Shown: positions 52-55,687 of the stretch, piece after piece | Layout: the number at the start of each line of letters is the position of its first letter | Position numbering within the stretch: the first letter of the stretch is position 1 | Origin: a virus | DNA: 55,687 nt | IMG/VR virus record: IMGVR_UViG_3300025410_000022 | Span: 1-55,687 of that record | Reading direction: 5' to 3' (one strand) | The notes under the pieces: model-generated | The model's input: the letters and a program-made list of their open reading frames with translations, nothing else | What the model was told of the DNA's origin: nothing | Databases searched by the model: none | Made by a program: the position numbers and the translations under genes

Positions 52-1164
52 ATGAACGCTATCACCTCCACCTTGATGACCGCTTCCAACCAGTGGGCTA
101 GCCGCCCGGCGGACCAGCGGTTCACTTCCCTCACTGATATCCTGGCGTATAAGCGCACCCTCCGGGCCCGCAGTCGCAGCACGGTCATCTCGACCAAGCA
201 ACTGGAAGTACAGCCGGTGGGCACCGATCACAAGGGTATTCAAGTGGTCAACCGCGTCACCGGCAACGCCGCCGCTCCATCCCACTACTCGTTTGGTCAA
301 CTCGCCACCCTGGCGAAGGCCCCCGCTGGCTATCTCCGCACTCTCCCGAGCGAGATGGCGGCGGACTGCATTAATTACGGCCTGCTCGCCCGTGACGTCG
401 AGGAGGTGGGCCTGTATCTCCAGAAGCCTGACCAGGACGTGACCTTGGCCGCGGCCACCGGCCCGAATTATGGACGCATCTTTGATGCCGACATCGTCGC
501 CGCCCTGGTGGACCGCTTTGGCGATGGCGTGACCGGCGCTTTCCGTGTGCCTGGCATTTTCGGCGCTCCTCTGGATCGGGTCACCAGCCAGGACACTACC
601 TTGTATGCGTCGGACCGCGATTGCTTCATTTTCCTGGCGGACGAGGCCAATCGTATCGAGGTTCCTGGCCGCCGGGACGGCCAGCCGGGCAGCCTGGCGC
701 GGGGCTTTTTCGTTTGGAACTCCGAGGTTGGCAACGCCACGTTCGGCATCCAGACGTTCTTATTCGACTATGTCTGCAAAAACCGCATTGTGTGGGGTGC
801 CCAGGACGTCAAGAAGATGACCATTCGGCACACCAGCGGCGCGCCTGATCGTTATATCCATGAGGTGGCACCGGCGCTGATCCAATACGCTAACTCCTCG
901 ACCCGCTCGATCACCGAGGCCCTGGCTGCGGCGCGCACCAAGAAAATTGACGATGACGTCAATGACTTCCTGGCCGCTCGCCGCTTCACCCGCTCCCAGG
1001 TGGCCGCCATCCAAGCTACGCACGAACTGGAAGAGGGCCGCCCGATTGAGACCCTCTGGGACGCCGCCACGGGGATCACCGCCTACGCTCGCCAGTTCGT
1101 CAACACTGACACGCGGATCGACCTGGAGCGCCAGGCGGGCGACATCTTTGCCATGGCGTCATAA
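52..1164 (+). CDS. DUF932 family phage/plasmid protein
   Basis: A 370-aa protein of the DUF932 (phage/plasmid-like TIGR03299) family, recognised from the central block RGFFVWNSEVGNATFGIQTF followed by YVCKNRIVWGA. The molecular function of this family is not established; members are common on phages and plasmids. The ATG at 52 is chosen because AAGGA lies 8 nt upstream; a TTG at 22 is in frame but lacks a ribosome site. Across the circle junction the gene is preceded by the promoter-like motif at 55632-55650, so it probably opens an early transcript that ends at the terminator at 3123-3153. Confidence 0.85.
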   Translation: MNAITSTLMTASNQWASRPADQRFTSLTDILAYKRTLRARSRSTVISTKQLEVQPVGTDHKGIQVVNRVTGNAAAPSHYSFGQLATLAKAPAGYLRTLPSEMAADCINYGLLARDVEEVGLYLQKPDQDVTLAAATGPNYGRIFDADIVAALVDRFGDGVTGAFRVPGIFGAPLDRVTSQDTTLYASDRDCFIFLADEANRIEVPGRRDGQPGSLARGFFVWNSEVGNATFGIQTFLFDYVCKNRIVWGAQDVKKMTIRHTSGAPDRYIHEVAPALIQYANSSTRSITEALAAARTKKIDDDVNDFLAARRFTRSQVAAIQATHELEEGRPIETLWDAATGITAYARQFVNTDTRIDLERQAGDIFAMAS

Positions 1165-3524: not shown

Positions 3525-5312
3525 ATGCCGTTGATCACTCTCGACTTCGAAACCTACTGGTCAGCCGATTATACGTTGTCGAAGATGACGACCGAGGCCT
3601 ATGTCAGGTCCCCGCAGTTCCACGCCCAGATGGTGGGCATCAAGATCGATGATGGTCCGGCCCAGGCTTTTCGACCCACCCAGGCGCTCAATGATCCCCG
3701 GCTCCGCCGCCTGATCGAGACCTCTGGCGTGCTGTTCCACCACAGTCACTTTGACGCTTTCATCCTGGCGCACCATTTCGGGCTAAAGCCCGCCTTTATA
3801 TTCGACACGCTCTCCATGGCGCGCCTGGTGCTACCGGAACTCAAGAGCCATTCACTGGCGGCCCTGGCCCGCGTGTTCAACCTGGCCGACAAGCGGTCCG
3901 ACATTCTGATGCAGTTCAAGGGCAAGCGTAACCTGACGGACGATGACTTCGCCATTTTGGGGCCCTATTGCACCCATGACGTTGACCTGACCTATACGAT
4001 CTTCAAGCGGATGCTGCCCGCCGTCCCCAAGGATGAGTTGAAGATCATTGACCTGACGACCCGGATGTTTAGTGAACCGAGGCTGCGGCTCGACGTCCCC
4101 AGGACTGAGACCTTTCTGAACGATTTGAAAACCGCGAATGTTACGCGGCTGGCCGCCCTGGGGGTCACCAAGGAAGACCTGTCTTCCTCCGCCCGGTTCA
4201 GTGAATTGCTCGAGCAGGCCGGGGCCGAGGTGCCCATGAAGCCCAGCCCGGCGAACCCTGACACTGAGATACCGGCGCTCGCCAAGACTGACGAGGGCAT
4301 GAAGGCCCTGCTCGAGCATGAGAGCGAGACCGTCCAACTGTTGGCCGCCGCTCGCCTGGGCGTCAAGTCCACCATCAATGAGACCAGGGCAGAACGTCTG
4401 CTCGACGCCAATTACCGTGGGGCCCTGCCCATCTATCTGAAGTACTGGGGCGCGCATACAGGCCGCATGTCCGGCGCGGACGGGATGAACTGGCAGAACC
4501 TGACGCCAGCCCTCAAGAAAACCGTGGTCGCGCCGCCTGGCTATCGCATCTGTACCGTCGATTCCTCCCAGGTGGAATGCCGCGGGGTCAATTGGCTGGC
4601 CGGACAGAACAGCGTTCTTGATCAATTTCGCCAGGGTGTGGACATCTATTCGGTCAACGCCAGCCTGTTCTACGGGTACGCGGTGAGCAAGGCGGACCCG
4701 GCGACCAAGAAAGAACGCCATTTCGGCAAGACCCTGGAATTGGCCTGCGGCTTCGGCATGGGCGACAAGACCTTCCGGGTCCGCGCCAAGATGGCGGGCA
4801 TTGACCTGACTGAGGATGAAGCGCGCCGCGCTATTGATCTGTACCGGGGCCTCCACCCCCAGGTGGTGGCTTACTGGAAGCAGGCGGGCCAGGTGATCGA
4901 GCATTTGCATTCGGGCGTTGATTTCGCCTGGGGCCCGCTCCGCATTCACCGGCACTGCATCTATCTGCCCAACGGCGCGCCGCTGGTCTACCGGGGCCTG
5001 GAGAAGGGCGGCCGGGAATGGAAGCTGGTCTGGGGCAAGGGCGTGAAGCGCATCTACGGGCCGCTGCTGGTCGAGAACGTCACCCAGGCGTTGTTTTCTG
5101 GTCTGCTGATCCGCGAGGCGCTGACGCGCATCGCTGCCCGGTACCCAGTGGTGCTGACCGTCCACGATGACATTTCCTACCTGGCCCCCGAGGATGAAGC
5201 CGAGGAAGCCCTGGCCTTCGGCCTGGAGCAGATGCGGATGATTCCCTGGTGGGCTGATGACCGGCTACCCCTCGACGCTGAAGGAGGTCATAGTGAACGG
5301 TATGACAAGTAG
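3525..5312 (+). CDS. polA-like: Family A DNA polymerase with 3'-5' exonuclease
   Basis: A 595-aa replicative polymerase. The proofreading domain (about 1-165) shows Exo I D7/E9 (LDFET), Exo II D77 (HSHFDAF) and Exo III Y148-x3-D152. The palm shows motif A D346 in TVDSSQVECR, motif B R398/K402 in RHFGKTLELACGFG and motif C HDD at 547-549. Motif A normally reads DYSQIELR and motif C HDE, so two normally conserved positions differ; the metal-binding aspartates D346 and D548 are kept. The 5'-nuclease domain of bacterial Pol I is absent, as in T7-like enzymes, and I see no inserted DnaJ-like segment of the kind reported for HMO-2011. Confidence 0.95.
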   Translation: MPLITLDFETYWSADYTLSKMTTEAYVRSPQFHAQMVGIKIDDGPAQAFRPTQALNDPRLRRLIETSGVLFHHSHFDAFILAHHFGLKPAFIFDTLSMARLVLPELKSHSLAALARVFNLADKRSDILMQFKGKRNLTDDDFAILGPYCTHDVDLTYTIFKRMLPAVPKDELKIIDLTTRMFSEPRLRLDVPRTETFLNDLKTANVTRLAALGVTKEDLSSSARFSELLEQAGAEVPMKPSPANPDTEIPALAKTDEGMKALLEHESETVQLLAAARLGVKSTINETRAERLLDANYRGALPIYLKYWGAHTGRMSGADGMNWQNLTPALKKTVVAPPGYRICTVDSSQVECRGVNWLAGQNSVLDQFRQGVDIYSVNASLFYGYAVSKADPATKKERHFGKTLELACGFGMGDKTFRVRAKMAGIDLTEDEARRAIDLYRGLHPQVVAYWKQAGQVIEHLHSGVDFAWGPLRIHRHCIYLPNGAPLVYRGLEKGGREWKLVWGKGVKRIYGPLLVENVTQALFSGLLIREALTRIAARYPVVLTVHDDISYLAPEDEAEEALAFGLEQMRMIPWWADDRLPLDAEGGHSERYDK

Positions 5313-5472
5313 TTTCGACGTTGAAAAACTGATCCGGGAACTGGAGCGCCAGGCGGATAACGCCTGGCAGGCCTCACGGTTTTTCAACGGGCCTGAGAGC
5401 GTAATTCTCCAGGTAAAGCAGCAAACCCTGCTCGGCATCGTTTCCGCCATCCGAAAGGCCCAAAATGAGTAA
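5293..5472 (+). CDS. Small helical hypothetical protein
   Basis: A 59-aa protein starting at GTG 5293, placed by the perfect AAGGAGG at 5281-5287; the next in-frame ATG (5302) is too far from that site. It overlaps the end of the polymerase gene and the start of the nuclease gene. The sequence is predicted helical (FDVEKLIRELERQADNAWQ). Unrecognised; position suggests an accessory role in replication. Confidence 0.7.
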   Translation: MNGMTSSFDVEKLIRELERQADNAWQASRFFNGPESVILQVKQQTLLGIVSAIRKAQNE

Positions 5473-6157
5473 GCGCCTGTTCCACCCGTGGTCTTATTCG
5501 TTCTTGTCGAGCGTTGAGACATGTCCACGGCAAGCCTATGGCCGTTATGTGGAAAAGATCAGGGAGTCGGATACCGCGGCCACTTTGTGGGGCACCGCCG
5601 TCCATGAGGCGCTGGAAAATTATGTCCGCGATGGGGTGCCGCTCGGAGAGCAGTTCACCCAGTACCAGGCCCTGGCTGGGAGCATCCGCTCCCGCACCGG
5701 GCTGACCCCGTCCATGCGTACCTTTTGCGAACATGAGATGGGTGTAGACGAGAACTGGCAGCCCTGTGATTTTCACGGGCCCGAGGTCTATGGGCGCGGC
5801 ATCGCTGACGTCCTGATGGTCATGGGGGGGTTCGCCTGGATTGGGGACTGGAAGACGGGGAAGGTCAAAGAAAACAGTTTCCAAGTGTCGGTGTTCGCCG
5901 CCCTGGTGTTTACCCACTTCCCCGAGGTCCAGCGGATCACGGCCAACAACATCTGGCTGAAGACCGGCCAGGTGGGTAAGAGCCACGTCTTTGAGCGCCA
6001 CGACCTGGCCGACATCAAAAAAGAGATTGAGATGCGCGTTGACGAGGTGCGGATGCATGAGGCTTTGGGCGGACCCTGGCCCGCCCGGCCATCCGGCTTG
6101 TGCCGGGGATGGTGTTCCGTAACCAATTGCGCCCACTGGCAGCCCAAGAGGGAATGA
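5465..6157 (+). CDS. Cas4/RecB-like PD-(D/E)XK exonuclease with Fe-S cysteines
   Basis: A 230-aa nuclease of the Cas4/AddB-C (PD-(D/E)XK) type. It has the N-terminal SFLSSVETCPRQAY motif with C20, the GTAVHEALENY motif with H47, D115 in RGIADV, the catalytic D128-W-K130 in IGDWKTGK, and Q140. C20 with C213, C217 and C222 (CRGWCSVTNC) matches the four-cysteine iron-sulfur pattern of Cas4 and AddB. The likely role is resection or processing of phage or host DNA during replication or recombination. It overlaps neighbours on both sides within the replication operon. Confidence 0.9.
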   Translation: MSKRLFHPWSYSFLSSVETCPRQAYGRYVEKIRESDTAATLWGTAVHEALENYVRDGVPLGEQFTQYQALAGSIRSRTGLTPSMRTFCEHEMGVDENWQPCDFHGPEVYGRGIADVLMVMGGFAWIGDWKTGKVKENSFQVSVFAALVFTHFPEVQRITANNIWLKTGQVGKSHVFERHDLADIKKEIEMRVDEVRMHEALGGPWPARPSGLCRGWCSVTNCAHWQPKRE

Positions 6158-6840: not shown

Positions 6841-7146
6841 ATGGACGCCGTAAAAACCGAGGCTCAGATCAAGGAAGAGGTCAAAGCCGTCCTCAAGGAT
6901 CGCGGAGCCTGGCACTTCATGCCCCACATGAATGGCTATGGCCGCAGTGGGATTCCCGATTTTATCGTTTGCTACCGGGGCAGGTTCATTGCGTTTGAAA
7001 CGAAACGGCAAGGCAACAAGCCGACGGCTTGGCAAAATCGGGAACTCGACGCCATTGGTAAAGCCCAGGGCCGGGCGTATGTGGTGTACGACGCCGCGTT
7101 TGTTGTCCAGGTCCTGGACGCCATCGATGGGGAAACGGTGTTTTGA
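6841..7146 (+). CDS. VRR-NUC domain nuclease
   Basis: A 101-aa protein with the catalytic core of the VRR-NUC branch of PD-(D/E)XK nucleases: GIPDFIV with D40, FETKRQG with E53 and K55, and Q65 in TAWQ. Stand-alone VRR-NUC proteins in phages are thought to cut branched or Holliday-junction DNA. The start follows a clear GGAGG at 6828-6832. Together with the Cas4-like nuclease it makes up the phage's DNA-processing set. Confidence 0.92.
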   Translation: MDAVKTEAQIKEEVKAVLKDRGAWHFMPHMNGYGRSGIPDFIVCYRGRFIAFETKRQGNKPTAWQNRELDAIGKAQGRAYVVYDAAFVVQVLDAIDGETVF

Positions 7147-7868: not shown

Positions 7869-9473
7869 ATGCTATATTCAAGGCAACATAATGTTGTCGT
7901 TTACGACGTTCCGCCACCCCAGATACAAAACCTTGTATCTGGGTGTCAGGCTTTGTCTTCAACGAAGGCGGTGGTGCCCTGCACCCTGTCGAATATGATG
8001 CGGATGCGCCGCGCCGGGTACCCAGCCTATAGCCCCATCCTTGAGGATTATGACTGGCCGTCGAACCCCAGGGTGGTGCCGCAGCCGTTCCCTCAACAAC
8101 GCCACATGGCCGCCTTCCTGACGCTCCACCCGCGGGCGTTCAACCTCTCGGACATGCGGACGGGCAAGACCCTGGCCCTGCTTTGGGCGGCCGACTATAT
8201 GATGAACCTCGGCTATATAAAAAAGATGCTGATCGTGGCCCCGCTCTCGATCCTCCACCGCACCTGGGAAGATTGCATCAAGACCCATCTGCTCGGCCGC
8301 CGGACATGCGCGGTCCTCCATGGGCGGGATCGGCTTAATCTGCTCAAGCAGGATGTTGATTTCTATATCATCAACTACGACGGCTTGGGCTCCGGGATGC
8401 GACGTGGCACCGTGGGCCTGCCAATCGGGTCTTTGGCAGCGACCATTGCCGCTCGCCAGGACATTGACGCCATCGCGGTTGATGAGGGTTCTGCTTACAA
8501 AGACCCGACGACGTCCAGGTTCCGGGTCATGCGCCAATTAATCAAGGATAAGCCCTTCTATTGGCACCTGACCGGCACCCCGACGCCAAATTCACCACTG
8601 GACGCTTGGGCGCAACGCAAGCTGGTCGATCCAAATTTTGGGACGTCCTATAACGATTTCAAAGATCGGACGATGACCAAGGTCACCAACTTCAAGTGGG
8701 CACCTAAGCCTAACGCCAAGGAAACGGTGGCGGCCACTTTGCAGCCCGCCATTCGGTACGACCGACATGCTTGCCTGGGGACCATGAAAACCGAAATTGA
8801 GATTTGTGACGTCCCCTTGTCAGTCGCGCAAAAGAAAGCCTATGATGACCTCAAGCGCGAATTGGCGCTCTCGTCTGTCAGCGGTAAAGTGATCACGGCC
8901 ATCAACGAAGCGGCGCTTCGGCTCAAACTGATCCAGGTGGCGTGTGGTGCCGTCTATGACGACAAACATGAAATCCATTTGGTGGATTGCCAGCCGCGGC
9001 TTGAGGCGCTTCGCGAACTTATCGATGAAGCACCCAACAAAGTACTAATCTTTGCGCCCTTGACGAGCGTTGTGAAACTGCTCTACAGTGAACTTTCGAA
9101 GGACCACTCGGTGGCGATGATCACGGGGGCCACCTCTCCCAAGGACCGGAATGACATATTCCGTAATTTCCAGACGGCGAAGGACCCCAGGATCATTGTC
9201 GGAGACCCAGGCCCGCTATCGCGGGGTTTGGATTTGACCGAGGCTGATACCATCATCTGGTACGCGCCTACTGACCTCCCCGAGGTCTACACCCAGGCCA
9301 ATTGCCGGATTGAGGGTATCAATCAGAAGGGGACCCCTGCCATCTACGGGCTCGCGGCGACCTATTTAGAACGGGAGGCATTCCGCCGGTTAGACCGGAA
9401 AGAAAGCCTCCAGGGGTTAATCCTGGGGTTGGTGGAAGATGCAAACAACATTGCTGACCGTGGAGCAGCTTAA
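7869..9473 (+). CDS. SNF2-like superfamily 2 DNA helicase/translocase
   Basis: A 534-aa protein with a full two-lobe helicase core. Q-like element PFPQQRHM (73-80), Walker A DMRTGKT (95-101), motif Ia IVAPLSIL (122-129), motif II DEGS (205-208, in place of DEAH), motif III LTGTPTPNSP (234-243). The second lobe follows with GDPGPLSRGLDLTEAD (motif V) and YTQANCRIEG (motif VI, near TQAxGRxxR). Phage SNF2-type proteins of this size occur beside PolA and D5-like primase genes and probably remodel or unwind replicating DNA. A perfect AGGAGG at 7856-7861 precedes the ATG. Confidence 0.92.
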   Translation: MLYSRQHNVVVYDVPPPQIQNLVSGCQALSSTKAVVPCTLSNMMRMRRAGYPAYSPILEDYDWPSNPRVVPQPFPQQRHMAAFLTLHPRAFNLSDMRTGKTLALLWAADYMMNLGYIKKMLIVAPLSILHRTWEDCIKTHLLGRRTCAVLHGRDRLNLLKQDVDFYIINYDGLGSGMRRGTVGLPIGSLAATIAARQDIDAIAVDEGSAYKDPTTSRFRVMRQLIKDKPFYWHLTGTPTPNSPLDAWAQRKLVDPNFGTSYNDFKDRTMTKVTNFKWAPKPNAKETVAATLQPAIRYDRHACLGTMKTEIEICDVPLSVAQKKAYDDLKRELALSSVSGKVITAINEAALRLKLIQVACGAVYDDKHEIHLVDCQPRLEALRELIDEAPNKVLIFAPLTSVVKLLYSELSKDHSVAMITGATSPKDRNDIFRNFQTAKDPRIIVGDPGPLSRGLDLTEADTIIWYAPTDLPEVYTQANCRIEGINQKGTPAIYGLAATYLEREAFRRLDRKESLQGLILGLVEDANNIADRGAA

Positions 9474-11168: not shown

Positions 11169-11473
11169 GCCTGACCGAGGACCTAGTTGCCGCGCAAACG
11201 GCTTCGGGCTTCTCGATCACGGATATGGGTACCTGGTTTGGTGTTAACCGCGAGACCATGAGAACGTGGCTCCTCGGCCGTAGGCCGGGGGGCCACCGCC
11301 TCCCTCAAATCCAGATCGAACTGAAGCTGCTTCAACTGGCGCTACGCGGCGGCGTGGACGGGTACGACCTTCCGGTCCCCCTATCCGTCACGCAATACGA
11401 ACGCCGGGCATATATTGAGGGGGTGCGGAATGCCATCGCAAATCGAATTCTTACAGCACATACTGCCGCCTGA
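11165..11473 (+). CDS. Helix-turn-helix protein
   Basis: A 102-aa protein with an HTH at about residues 13-40 (GFSITDMGTWFGVNRETMRT, then WLLGRRPGGHR), followed by a helical region. It is coupled to the gene before it (ATGA) and overlaps the primase-helicase start by 44 nt. It may be a replication-initiation accessory or a regulator; the HTH is clear, the target unknown. Confidence 0.7.
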   Translation: MSLTEDLVAAQTASGFSITDMGTWFGVNRETMRTWLLGRRPGGHRLPQIQIELKLLQLALRGGVDGYDLPVPLSVTQYERRAYIEGVRNAIANRILTAHTAA

Positions 11474-14270
11474 TCCCTATTGGTTTGGGTTCGCCGCGCA
11501 GAACAAGAAGGTCAAGGCCCAGGGGTTCTCCAACCTCGCCTCGCTGGTATCCTGGCTCAACGACCAGTGCGCCAACGGCGCGGATGCCTATATGGCTTGC
11601 GGTGGGTTCAAGACCATCGACAAGCGCACCAAAACCAACAGCGCCGGGGCGAAGGCCCTCTGGACTGAAATCGACGTCGGTGAGGGGCATTCCAACCCCA
11701 GCAAGTACGCGACCATCGAAGAGGCTGTGGTTGCCGTCGTGAATTTTTGCAATGCCGTTGGCATTGCGCTCCCCACCATCGTCGCGTCTGGCGGCGGGAT
11801 ACATTGCTACTGGGTGCTGGATCGGGTGGTGCCACCGGAGGAGTGGACTGAGGTCGCGCTCGCGCTCAAGGCGAAGCTGCTGGAGCATGGGGTTGATATC
11901 GACCCGGCTCGCACCGCTGATATTGCAAGCGTTTTGCGCCTACCCGGCACCAACAATTACAAGCTGGGATACGCCAGGGGCGTAGCCTGCGGGGCACTTC
12001 AACCGGCTATCGCCTTCCCAGAGGTTAAAGCAAAACTTCTTGGCGTCACGGTACTGAATGAAAGTCAGAAAGAGGTTTTGGGTTCGATTGAGATTGGCGA
12101 CATGCCGGGGGATGACCGGCCTAAGTCCATCATCAAGGCAGCGCAAGAGTGCAATGCCCTCAAGGTGGTGAGAGATCGCCGGGGCGATGTCAAAGAACCT
12201 CTTTGGTACGGCATGTTATGTGTGGCGGCCCACTGCCAGGACGGCGAAAGCATCATCCATGAATGGTCGAACGGTTACCCCGGTTACAGCGAGGGCGAGA
12301 CCGAGAAGAAGTTTGAACACGCCAAGACCAACGACACCGGCCCCACCACATGCGCGAAATTTAAAGACATTGACCCGACGCTCTGCATGGGGTGCCCGCA
12401 TGTACTCAAAAGCCCGATTATGTTGGGGGTCGAAGACGCTTCTTTCCCTAAGCAAGTTAAGATCGAGGAGCCTGTTGAAGACGAGTGGCCCAGCCTACCG
12501 CCTCGGTTCTCTTGGGGTCCCGCCCATCAATTGATTTACACGCCGCCGCCCAAGGCGGACGGGACGCCCGGCATCCCGACAACCGTCAGCCAGTACCCAA
12601 TCTATTTGGATAAGATACAGCGTCAGGAGCAGAACGACGAGGTCGCCATAGCGTTTCGGCAATTTCTGCCCCACATGGGATGGCGGCGGTTTAGCATTAC
12701 GGCCCGCGAGTTCTACGGCAGTAACGGCGCGGCGGCCCTGGCCGCCAACGGAGCCAACGTCTACGCTGAAAACAAAAAACTCTTTATGACCTACGTCCAG
12801 AAGGCCCAGGATGTTTTGCGTTCTGTGGAAGCGGACCAAATCCGCTACGGGCAGTTTGGGTGGAAAAATGACCACACGGCTTTCCTGGTTGGGCGGACAC
12901 TCTATAAGGCCGATGGTACTACTGAGGTTGTTGACGTCAGCCCAGATGCCGAGCCCCGGTCCAATTGGCTGGTGCCGAACCCCAAGGGGAACCTGGAGGA
13001 GTGGAAGCGCCTTGTGTCGCCGTTGATGCAGCCAGGTTGGGAGGCCCAGGCTATTGGGTTCCTGTCCACTTTCGGGGCCCCCATGATGGAGTTCGCCATC
13101 TCGGACGGTAACGGCGGCGGCGTTGTGGCTCTCACTTCCACTGAAGGCGGAACCGGCAAGTCCACCGCGACGTTCTGCAACGCTTCGGTCTGGGGTTCAT
13201 GGGGTTGGAACGATCTGATTTCGCGGGATACGGTCGTTGGGCAGTTTGGATCTTTTGCCCAGATCAGGAACCTCCCCATCGTGGTTGAGGAATCTATGAA
13301 GTCCGATGCCGAGGAGATGAAGTCTTTTATTGCCGGGTTCACCGTTGCCCGCGACAAGATCAGAGGGACCAAGGAAGGCGGGTTGAGCATCCCCAAGGGC
13401 GGGTGGAAGACCATCCTCACTACGACGTCGAACCGCTCCATCGTGGACTTGCTGATGACCGACGGTGAGAGTGCCCAGGCAACTCGCGTGTTTGAAATTA
13501 CATGCCGCAAACCGCCCGGCCTGGTTGGCAACGGGGACACAACCTATTGCAGCAAGATCAATGACCATGCTGGTCACGCCGGGGTCGTGTTTGCCAAGTT
13601 TATTGTCCAGCCCCAGGTGGTGGCCTCGATTAAAAAGGCGATGCCGGAACGGATCACTTACTACCAGACGCGATTGAACGGCTCGACCAAAGCCCGGTTC
13701 CTGGTTTCTACCCTGGCGGCGATTGACGTTGGGGCCCGGCTTGCGATGGCTTGCGGGCTTATCTCGGGGGATATCACCCGGATTATGGATTGGGCAGTGG
13801 CCTACGCGCTTGCGGCGGACAATGCTGAAGAGACCAAGTTTGATTCCCTGGCTACCCTGACCCAAATGATGAATGATCTGAACGAGAATACGTTGATTGT
13901 CAGTGACATCTGGAAACGGGGAGAGGCCGCCTTTATCCATCGTCACCACCGGGGTCCGCTCAAGGCCCGTGTGGAACTGACCCCCGGCTTTGCCTATATT
14001 TCCATCCAGGCGGTGCGCGAGTGGTGTGCCAAAAACCGGAAGCCTTATTCCCTGCTGCACAAGGAAGCCAAGGAAGCCGGGGCGTTACTGGAAGACCGGG
14101 TTTACCAGACGCTTGGCGCTGGCACTGAACACGGCGGGTCCGGTCGGACCTGGAGTTGGAAGCTTGATTGTAACCATGAAGGCCTGGGAGGGTTCATGCG
14201 CTTGATCCCAACGACCGGCATAGCGCCGGAAATTCTGGGCGATAACGTAGTTCCAATGGTGAAGCCATGA
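11430..14270 (+). CDS. Primase-helicase: AEP-like primase fused to D5/SF3 helicase
   Basis: A 946-aa fusion. The N-terminal part has archaeo-eukaryotic primase marks: acidic pair E80-x-D82 (WTEIDVGEG), SGGGIHCYW (120-128) and RLPGTNNYK (170-178). A cysteine-bearing linker (TCAKF...LCMGCPH) near 310-330 resembles PriCT/D5_N regions. The helicase has Walker A EGGTGKST near residue 573 and Walker B LPIVVEES near 618, with an SF3-like core. It would prime and unwind phage DNA for the polymerase. ATG 11430 follows GAGGGGG; an in-frame TTG at 11415 lacks support. The size is typical of phage primase-helicases. Confidence 0.9.
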   Translation: MPSQIEFLQHILPPDPYWFGFAAQNKKVKAQGFSNLASLVSWLNDQCANGADAYMACGGFKTIDKRTKTNSAGAKALWTEIDVGEGHSNPSKYATIEEAVVAVVNFCNAVGIALPTIVASGGGIHCYWVLDRVVPPEEWTEVALALKAKLLEHGVDIDPARTADIASVLRLPGTNNYKLGYARGVACGALQPAIAFPEVKAKLLGVTVLNESQKEVLGSIEIGDMPGDDRPKSIIKAAQECNALKVVRDRRGDVKEPLWYGMLCVAAHCQDGESIIHEWSNGYPGYSEGETEKKFEHAKTNDTGPTTCAKFKDIDPTLCMGCPHVLKSPIMLGVEDASFPKQVKIEEPVEDEWPSLPPRFSWGPAHQLIYTPPPKADGTPGIPTTVSQYPIYLDKIQRQEQNDEVAIAFRQFLPHMGWRRFSITAREFYGSNGAAALAANGANVYAENKKLFMTYVQKAQDVLRSVEADQIRYGQFGWKNDHTAFLVGRTLYKADGTTEVVDVSPDAEPRSNWLVPNPKGNLEEWKRLVSPLMQPGWEAQAIGFLSTFGAPMMEFAISDGNGGGVVALTSTEGGTGKSTATFCNASVWGSWGWNDLISRDTVVGQFGSFAQIRNLPIVVEESMKSDAEEMKSFIAGFTVARDKIRGTKEGGLSIPKGGWKTILTTTSNRSIVDLLMTDGESAQATRVFEITCRKPPGLVGNGDTTYCSKINDHAGHAGVVFAKFIVQPQVVASIKKAMPERITYYQTRLNGSTKARFLVSTLAAIDVGARLAMACGLISGDITRIMDWAVAYALAADNAEETKFDSLATLTQMMNDLNENTLIVSDIWKRGEAAFIHRHHRGPLKARVELTPGFAYISIQAVREWCAKNRKPYSLLHKEAKEAGALLEDRVYQTLGAGTEHGGSGRTWSWKLDCNHEGLGGFMRLIPTTGIAPEILGDNVVPMVKP

Positions 14271-14503
14271 CCGACATCATTGACCACCTAAACAATCGCA
14301 TCGAGGACAGCGCTTGGTCGCCAGACCCGTTGCTAGTGGAAGCCCTGCGCCGTCAGCAGTTGTATAAAGATGCTGCTGCTGCTGACGACTGTCACCAATT
14401 GGTTTCGTGCGACCCGCGTGATATTTTGTCTCTAAGCTTTGACCTGAATGCCGCCCGAGCCGCCGTGCGGATGCTAGTTCAAGCCTTGGCGCAAATCCGT
14501 TGA
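14267..14503 (+). CDS. Small hypothetical protein, recombined 3' end
   Basis: A 78-aa protein coupled to the primase-helicase (ATGA). Its C-terminal segment ARAAVRMLVQAL matches NAAVRMLAEAL of the next gene product, with 17 identical bases underneath. The gene ends inside the 52-bp repeat 14485-14536 in a different frame from the copy at 15897, so its original tail was probably replaced by recombination. Function unknown. Confidence 0.7.
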   Translation: MTDIIDHLNNRIEDSAWSPDPLLVEALRRQQLYKDAAAADDCHQLVSCDPRDILSLSFDLNAARAAVRMLVQALAQIR

Positions 14504-33032: not shown

Positions 33033-33266
33033 TTAGTTTTTCCAAAAATGGTCGATGGCAAGTCCGACGGCGGTGCCAACAGCGGCGAAGATACCACCCG
33101 CTAGGGACGCTTGCCCTTTGGTCTTGGCGATTTCGGTGGCGTGGCTTTTGCTTTCTTCGAACAGTATGTTGATCTGCCCAGAATGCGTTTCGGTGCGTTG
33201 GAGTGCCTTGGACAAGTCACCCTTTATTTCCCAAAGGAGTTTTCTGATTTCTTCTTGGTCGGTCAT
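33033..33266 (-). CDS. Holin candidate with C-terminal membrane helix
   Basis: A 77-aa protein: amphipathic coiled N-terminus (TDQEEIRKLLWEIKGDLSKA) and one C-terminal membrane helix (LAGGIFAAVGTAVGLAIDHFW). The layout is like XhlA-type holin components. It starts by ATGA overlap with the gene before it and lies immediately upstream of the endolysin, the usual holin place. Confidence 0.65.
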   Translation of the reverse strand: MTDQEEIRKLLWEIKGDLSKALQRTETHSGQINILFEESKSHATEIAKTKGQASLAGGIFAAVGTAVGLAIDHFWKN

Positions 33267-53165: not shown

Positions 53166-53215
53166 CCTGCAGCCTGGTCGCTTTGTTGCCTGCAGCCTGG
53201 TCGCTTTGTTGCCTG
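53166..53215 (+). repeat. 23-bp tandem repeat, 2.2 copies
   Basis: Exact period-23 repeat (unit begins CCTGCAGCCTGGTCG and ends TTTGTTG). Each unit contains CCTGG and the phrase CTTTGTTGCCT, the latter also found at 55486-55496 in the other non-coding region. Confidence 0.9.
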
Positions 53216-54364: not shown

Positions 54365-54379
54365 GCTTTCCTAGCCTTT
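54358..54379 (+). terminator. Terminator overlapping the stop codon
   Basis: GGCTAGG-cttt-CCTAGCC-TTTC. The stem includes the stop TAG of the Gp88-like gene; first of two tandem terminators. Confidence 0.65.
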
Positions 54380-54382
54380 CGA

Positions 54383-54417
54383 GCGCGCCAGGTTATCGCC
54401 TGGCGCGCTTTTCTTTT
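54383..54417 (+). terminator. Strong rho-independent terminator
   Basis: GCGCGCCAGG-ttatcg-CCTGGCGCGC is a perfect 10-bp stem followed by TTTTCTTTT. The arms are the CGCCAGG element that recurs in the non-coding regions. Confidence 0.9.
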
Positions 54418-54707
54418 GTCTATCCGCCAGGTAAGGGCGCGCCAGGTGCGCCAATGCCACCACCAGACCTATAACGCGCCAGGATGGCAAGCGCAGTGGT
54501 ACTCGCCTAGGCTCCCATATAGGCGCACCCCGTTCCGGGCGCGTAGCACCCCTTAGAATCGATTTACGAAATGGTTGCATTTGTTGTGAATTATCGCCAA
54601 CAAAGTGTAAAGCTATGGGTAAAGTACAAAAAAGTGAGCAAAATCAATGGGTTGGGCTTGACCACCACGTTCAAAAGTGCCAAAAGCCAACAGGGAAGGT
54701 GCAACGC
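54418..54707. other. Intergenic region with CGCCAGG elements
   Basis: 290 bp without a convincing gene. The left half carries CGCCAGG at 54426, GCGCCAGG at 54440 and 54478, and a palindrome-like CGCCTAGGCTCCCATATAGG. The right half is AT-richer (TTGCATTTGTTGTGAATTAT) and probably contains the promoter of the gene at 54708. A longer start at 54615 for that gene has no ribosome site. Confidence 0.5.
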
Positions 54708-55028
54708 ATGACCAATAAATCCAACACTTTCGGGCTAATAATTAAAAACCTGGCAGCCGGGGCTAAATACGCGTCCTGGATAGCAGATTGTGTTGGAATA
54801 AACCGTGCCACGTTTAATTCCTGGTCATGGAATAGGCAAAAACCTGGAAAAAGGAAAGTGGCGCTCTTGATTGACTCAGTGCCAACGCTCCGCGCCCAAT
54901 TACTTGCCCGCCACCAAGCCGAACTTGAAGCCTTCGAAAAAGGTGCGCGAGACCTTTGGCTATTTCACCAAACGGACCCTGGACGCTACACCAGGCCGGA
55001 CCCCAGCCATAAACCGATCAAGAACTAA
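54708..55028 (+). CDS. HTH-like DNA-binding protein beside the origin candidate
   Basis: A 106-aa protein; ATG 54708 follows GGAAGG. YASWIADCVGINRATFNSWS, then WNRQKPGKRKVALLID resembles a helix-turn-helix. The C-terminus is helical and basic. The gene stands alone next to the large non-coding region with iteron-like repeats, so it could be a replication initiator or a repressor of that region; neither is shown. Confidence 0.6.
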   Translation: MTNKSNTFGLIIKNLAAGAKYASWIADCVGINRATFNSWSWNRQKPGKRKVALLIDSVPTLRAQLLARHQAELEAFEKGARDLWLFHQTDPGRYTRPDPSHKPIKN

Positions 55029-55168
55029 CCGGGCGAAACCCGTTACGATACAACTAATCATCGTCTGTTCTGGCCCCATCTTTATAGATATCAATCACTT
55101 AGCGTTCAACTGTTAACCCGTAATTAGCGAACAGAAAAAAACTGCACAGTCAAGTGAACAGTTGAATT

Positions 55169-55188
55169 TGGCGGTTTTCCGCCATTTT
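55169..55188. terminator. Hairpin with T-run
   Basis: TGGCGG-tttt-CCGCCA followed by TTTT; on the other strand it is also followed by A/T-rich sequence. A short bidirectional terminator-like element in the non-coding region. Confidence 0.5.
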
Positions 55189-55323
55189 GACCACAACTAG
55201 TGCGACATTTTTGGGTACTGTGCGAAGTGTGCGGCGGAAAATATGAGATAGGTATATATCCACCAGGAGGGACCGGGGAGAGCCCACTGGAAGAAAAAGC
55301 CTCGCTAGTACCATATTATTCCC

Positions 55324-55350
55324 AGAACAGTTAGAACACTTAGAACAGTT
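55324..55350. repeat. Three tandem 9-bp iteron-like repeats
   Basis: AGAACAGTT, AGAACACTT, AGAACAGTT, without spacers. They stand immediately before a 38-bp stretch that is nearly pure A/T (55351-55388). Confidence 0.85.
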
Positions 55351-55388
55351 ATATATATATATTTAAACTATTTAAAACATATATATAA
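55351..55388. other. AT-rich tract, possible unwinding element
   Basis: A run of ATATAT, TTTAAA and ATATATAA with only two C in 38 bases, and partial two-fold symmetry around TTTAAACTATTTAAA. It is by far the most AT-rich spot of the genome. Confidence 0.7.
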
Positions 55389-55631
55389 GAACGGCAGTTT
55401 TCCTGGGGCTTTTGCAAGATGGCAACTGTGCGATTGACTGTTCACTTGTGGCCGCCGCGACCCTCAAAACTCGCACACTTATCACTTTGTTGCCTTATTA
55501 CTTCGCAAGATGGAAAGTGTGCGACCCGCCAGGTCATCGCCAGGTCAAGTGTGCAGCCGTGAACTGTTCGCCAGGTGGAGCCTGGTCGCCCGCCAGGCCG
55601 TCGCACACTTATCAAGTTGGAATAATAAGTT

Positions 55632-55650
55632 TAACTTTCCGAAAAATTAT
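55632..55650 (+). promoter_or_regulatory. Promoter/operator motif, copy C
   Basis: TAACTTTCC-gaaaaa-TTAT, the same pattern as copies A and B. After closing the circle it lies about 60 bp upstream of the DUF932 gene start at 52, so it likely controls that transcript. Confidence 0.6.
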
Positions 55651-55658
55651 GTCATTGT

Positions 55659-55687
55659 CTCCACCGGGGGGGGGCGATTTTGCCCGC
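55659..55687. repeat. Right copy of terminal 29-bp direct repeat
   Basis: Identical to 1-29; the window ends by running into its own beginning. Confidence 0.85.

Follow-up and report, generated by a model that had tools for sequence, protein, structure and literature searches.

The only long gene-free region of this viral genome carries short repeats beside an almost pure A/T tract, which raises the question of whether the phage begins replication there and, if so, which of its proteins recognizes the site. Here the window means the whole stretch of DNA that was analysed, at its full length of 55,687 nucleotides.

An iteron array beside the most A/T-rich tract of the genome

The record closes on itself through a 29-bp end overlap (bases 1-29 equal 55659-55687), reducing 55687 bp to a circle of 55658 bp, and the gene-free region at 55029-55658 runs on across the record ends to base 51, where it gives way to a gene for a DUF932 protein (52-1164, plus strand). 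At 681 bp this gap is the longest gene-free stretch of the genome, as the initial annotation had recognized from its shorter version, and it ranks first in repeat-richness among the 11 gaps of at least 180 bp (z=17.5 against shuffles). At its edge lies a G9 run (55666-55674), the only run of G or C of 8 or more in the genome.

At the centre of the gap, three 9-bp iterons abut one another (55324-55350), exactly the spacer-less AGAACA(G/C)TT 9-mers that had been described. On the plus strand they read AGAACAGTT (55324-55332), AGAACACTT (55333-55341) and AGAACAGTT (55342-55350), and in their minus-strand orientation AACTGTTCT, AAGTGTTCT and AACTGTTCT. Dinucleotide shuffling of the gap, repeated 300 times, never produced such a tandem triple, nor so many repeated 7-mers or 8-mers. 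Three was nevertheless an undercount, as a single family with the core A(C/G)TGT(T/G)C has 14 copies in both orientations across 55144-55609, with an expectation of 0.07 for the gap and 6 copies in the other 55 kb. Counting k-mers gave two apparent families, GAACA(G/C)TT and AAGTGTGC, each present five times in the genome and every time in the gap. A division into two separate repeat families (AGAACAGTT versus AAGTGTGCGAC) was considered and rejected given the common core.

The A/T tract divides the cores evenly: seven are at it or on its left side, seven on its right. Besides the central triple, the left side holds a minus-strand pair (55144-55162, cores at 55144 and 55156) and a plus-strand pair of abutting cores in 9-bp phase (55217-55232, cores at 55217 and 55226). 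To the right are a plus-strand pair (55425-55443, cores at 55425 and 55437), a minus-strand copy with the plus-strand core GCACACT (55473-55479), three plus-strand copies (55516-55569, cores at 55516, 55548 and 55563) and a second minus-strand GCACACT (55603-55609). A 25-nt inverted repeat (55140-55164 and 55423-55447, 80% complementary) brackets the tract.

The tract itself (55349-55388), a candidate DNA-unwinding element abutted by the central triple, has 2 G/C in 40 bp and forms an imperfect inverted repeat; no other 40-mer of the genome has so little G/C (5%, against 22.5% for the next lowest), and the tract holds the genome's only pure A/T run of at least 16 bp, which bears out its earlier description as almost pure A/T. 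No DnaA box (TTWTNCACA) is present in the gap; such boxes are frequent at iteron-type theta origins but not universal. GC skew, which the initial annotation had put forward as a check, was uninformative and was rejected as an origin marker: at four-fold sites it follows gene direction, so that it carries no replication signal, and its cumulative turning points fall at 4.6 kb and 42.9 kb with nothing at the gap.

A primase-helicase as the likely initiator

We propose that the gap (55029-55658 with bases 1-51) is probably a phage replication origin of the P4/SaPI type, with the primase-helicase encoded at 11415-14270 (plus strand) as its initiator. This 951-aa protein (Pfam DUF927, E 2e-16) combines archaeo-eukaryotic primase (AEP) motifs, a Cys-rich/PriCT segment, a Walker A motif and a DUF927 helicase of the self-loading type, and in its AlphaFold model (mean pLDDT 69) residues 859-918 form a strand-helix-helix-strand-strand arrangement that is winged-helix-like, at moderate pLDDT. 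Profile searches matched SCCmec Cch (5dgk, E 5e-20), the SaPIBov1 Rep structure (8tch, E 1e-18) and S-2L PrimPol (6zp9, E 0.004), and Foldseek searches with the model returned the same three structures (E 1.8e-15, 6.4e-13 and 1.6e-7, respectively). Fusions of AEP primase, DUF927 helicase and winged helix are common in phages. Upstream on the same strand, the replication module also encodes a family-A DNA polymerase (3525-5312; phrog_17, E 1.5e-68), a PD-(D/E)XK (RecB-like) exonuclease (5465-6157), a small VRR-NUC-like endonuclease (6841-7146; phrog_93, E 8e-19) and an SNF2-type helicase (7869-9473; phrog_62, E 3e-92, and Pfam SNF2-rel_dom).

This protein, and not the product of the open reading frame (ORF) at 54708, is the likely initiator. 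SaPI Rep recognizes its iterons through the C-terminal domain (PMC7581432), P4 alpha binds its origin repeats with a winged helix (PMC4234260), and for AEP-DUF927-winged helix proteins origin recognition has been predicted for the winged helix (PMC5862659). By this scheme the C-terminal winged-helix-like domain would bind the 14 iterons, and the three abutting copies would place helicase rings right beside the A/T tract of 40 bp, and this tract would melt. The DUF927 ring would then load itself and unwind the DNA, the N-terminal primase would make primers, the phage's family-A polymerase would extend them, and replication would thus start at the gap.

The gene of the proposed initiator lies about 11.7 kb from the gap, a distance that counts against the origin reading and sets the window apart from SaPI, where the origin immediately follows rep, and from P4, where crr adjoins the alpha gene. 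A stem-loop of the pRN1 type downstream of the primase-helicase gene has no room, since the next ORF (14267-14503) overlaps the gene end.

Equivalent loci in related phages

Relatives were sought by protein because DNA similarity gave none, the gap having no DNA-level relative in the phage collection. A capsid protein search yielded six genomes (G001-G006), a polymerase search yielded 24 loci together with KPP25, Rollin and Rhizobium phages, and an alignment search with the primase-helicase yielded 80 more loci among the matches listed, with several hundred homologues in IMG/VR. Nine further near-complete genomes with a primase-helicase homologue (25-30% identity) were added (G017-G025). The 80 neighbours of DUF932 served as controls and not as relatives of the replication module.

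An unbiased scan for repeat clusters picked out its two positive controls, P4 ori and P4 crr, and flagged loci with an A/T tract in the window, G006, G002, KPP25, Rollin and RHph_TM3_14A. Every pure A/T run of at least 16 bp in the window, G002, KPP25, Rollin and RHph sits in such a repeat locus, the repeats of RHph being weak (z=6.2). Rollin has three 9-bp TTGCATACT units abutting its only long A/T run, TATTTATATACAAAATAATAATAATAATAA, and KPP25 has two gene-free loci with TTCGTRACA units, one of them a perfect 3x9-bp tandem. In G006, CTATTCA units are found together with two P4-type GGTGAACAGT sites where its PrimPol-DUF5906 gene ends or immediately beyond that point, an arrangement that resembles P4, where crr is downstream of alpha. 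Neither KPP25 nor Rollin has an annotated origin.

Ranking gaps blind to motif gave top repeat gaps with the words TAGAACATT (G017), TAATGTTCCG (G018), TGGAACA (G024) and TAATGTTA (G020, G021 and G023), the last forming in G020 three 9-bp units that abut ATATATATAT; TGTTC or TGTTA occurs in the words of all six genomes, often in 9-bp phase. Under one strict criterion, clusters were found in 8 of 18 primase-helicase genomes, the core being the top word in 4 of those 8, and in the DUF932-gene control phages (51 loci, 615 kb) there were 5 noncoding clusters, none with the core. No clear repeat locus was found in G019, G022, G025 and G008-G012; of these, G008-G012, G019 and G025, which have the same primase-helicase and some of which are fragments, weigh against the origin reading.

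Position recurs as well. Genomes with the module share the order PolA, exonuclease, SNF2, PrimPol, and PolA has the repeat locus on its 5' side in the window, G006, KPP25 (at 26.4 kb), Rollin, RHph, G017, G018, G020 and G024, whereas the remaining genomes show this order if they are taken to be circular; in relatives, too, the locus is far from the primase-helicase gene. Related phages have an equivalent repeat and A/T locus in a corresponding position, usually at the start of the early region, and its repeat words are either related to those of the window or different. When a single generic core was applied to all genomes it was significant in some only, so our claim is of a drifting word and not of one motif. 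Conservation in relatives, which the initial annotation had proposed as a check, holds for the layout; the word varies, and several genomes have no such locus.

A pattern scan of IMG/VR for three GAAYASTNN units returned many coding repeats and some noncoding arrays beside A/T tracts, of which one adjoins a D5_N/DUF5906 helicase gene (L157), one a P4 alpha gene (L133) and one a DnaB-like helicase gene (L190). Arrays of 9-bp GAACA-type units near A/T tracts were seen in the IMG/VR phages L138, L160, L168, L194, L190 and L157.

Several further features of these genomes were noted. A distance of 32 kb separates the two KPP25 iteron loci (L132, 6380-6850 and 38230-38560), and each coincides with one of the phage's two long A/T runs, a pairing that recalls P4 ori and crr, and an element GTGGCACTAAGGCTCCAGC recurs in and around them. 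Rollin (L129, 585-610) and KPP25 (L132, 38310-38340) have in common a hairpin-like element, GCCTTAGTGCCACG and AGCCTAGTGCCACGTGGC, beside the A/T tract; unlike the iterons it is shared by these two Pseudomonas aeruginosa phages, and it is possibly a host-factor or priming site. An array of CGCAGTGG at Rollin 1087 was rejected, having been flagged through an N-run artefact and not an A/T tract. G002, a capsid relative that lacks the window's PolA/PrimPol module, has six perfect 14-bp TTCTACCATTATCC repeats with a 29-bp A/T run (L115, 13435-13518), which are iteron-like, and at 33137 a C14 run beside an A/T tract, the only G or C run of 8 or more in that genome. In L046 (3840-3950), another contig, some 14 GCCGCTAA units in tandem precede a palindromic A/T tract upstream of a DUF932 gene. 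The primase-helicase homologue of G024 (G024:C1:6963-9647) contains one in-frame TGA.

Alternative readings of the locus

The repeats could instead be operators, in a control region for the early operon that binds a phage or host regulator, with the A/T tract serving as promoter or UP element. Regulatory sites are to be expected in the gap because the early genes (DUF932 onwards) begin immediately downstream of it, and the adjacent small ORF has HTH-like helices. However, 14 sites of either orientation scattered through 470 bp go far beyond ordinary operators, promoter-like sites in the gap are not above chance, the neighbouring ORF is unconserved whereas the layout is conserved, and the known origins of P4 carry the same signature, all of which makes this reading unlikely.

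That neighbouring ORF (54708-55028, plus strand, 106 aa) was the lone HTH gene of the initial annotation and its suggested initiator, which would make the gap a classical origin like those of iteron plasmids. The gene adjoins the gap, and a single-sequence model of its product is helical with HTH-like helices, at low confidence (pLDDT 57). Its HTH nature is not established, however, as it matched nothing in Pfam or PHROG and no Rep family, neither the fetched loci, including those of relatives that keep the iteron locus, nor the phage collection gave a detectable homologue, and the phage encodes a primase-helicase of the self-loading type. We therefore rejected the ORF product as initiator and consider a plasmid-like origin of this kind highly improbable.

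Iteron arrays also act as parS sites, and the record ends with their 29-bp overlap lie, like the G9 run, at the gap edge, but a centromere-like partition site, packaging site or recombination hot spot is the least probable reading of all, given that no ParA- or ParB-like protein appeared among the proteins scanned, that the terminase lies 3 kb away and is oriented the other way, and that the layout tracks the replication module.

Comparison with known origins

Read as an origin served by the primase-helicase, the locus resembles P4 ori and crr (type 1 repeats TGTTCACC) in that a stretch rich in A/T is surrounded by short repeats with a TGTTC core, which occur in either orientation and in part abut one another. 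The presence of more than one class of site in P4 is counted among the likenesses, as is its initiator, alpha, a primase-helicase with a winged-helix C-terminus, for which our model suggests a winged-helix-like counterpart. Unlike the window protein, P4 alpha couples a Toprim primase to a D5_N/DUF5906 helicase, so the helicase families differ; P4 also has two loci where one was found in the window, and the iteron words differ outside the core. Because P4-like TGTTC words are short, the resemblance may be convergence.

SaPI Rep (SaPIBov1) and SCCmec Cch and Cch2 have a helicase of the same DUF927 group, although the window, unlike SaPI, has a fused AEP primase and represents a whole phage that encodes a polymerase of its own; the likeness is one of helicase group and, if the candidate initiator binds as proposed, of iteron reading by the C-terminal domain. 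AEP primase, helicase and winged helix are joined in one chain in PrimQH-type proteins, pRN1 ORF904 and the phage NrS-1 polymerase, but the origin mapped for pRN1 is a stem-loop of 100 nt that lacks iterons (PMC4234260) and NrS-1 uses primase recognition motifs (PMC8718748), whereas the window has an iteron array and an A/T tract. The Pseudomonas phages KPP25 (Kochitakasuvirus) and Rollin share a homologous polymerase module and 3x9-bp tandem repeats near or abutting their only long A/T runs; they differ from the window in their repeat words, and KPP25 also in its two loci and DUF5906-type helicase.

The origin reading of the initial annotation is well supported by comparison, with counterparts in relatives found by a scan that recovers the P4 origins, and its suggested initiator is not supported; to call it a new phage iteron system was too strong in view of its likeness to P4 and SaPI origins. 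Somewhat short of an even chance, in our judgement, is that it represents an undescribed origin class. Such a class would comprise full-size phages with a PolA-exonuclease-SNF2-(AEP-DUF927-winged helix) module and a single replication start site in the early region, far from the initiator gene, in which 9-10-bp-phased TGTT(C/A)-type iterons abut an A/T tract, their word drifting with the winged helix and converging on, or shared with, that of satellite P4. In the literature we consulted, no phage origin was named for a protein of the AEP-DUF927-winged helix type. The window locus and its counterparts, including those of two Pseudomonas aeruginosa phages, offer a specific initiator-iteron pair for testing, and the coincidence of the most repeat-rich gap with the only long A/T run provides a simple signature by which to look for origins in uncultured phages of the group.

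Other repeats in the window

The second most repeat-rich gap of the window (54365-54614, z=9.7) has several copies of GCGCGCCAGG, one of which forms a 13-bp hairpin terminator (54381-54410). A perfect 23-bp tandem duplication, CCTGCAGCCTGGTCGCTTTGTTG (53166-53215, 2.2 copies), sits just 3' of the divergence point between two gene blocks.
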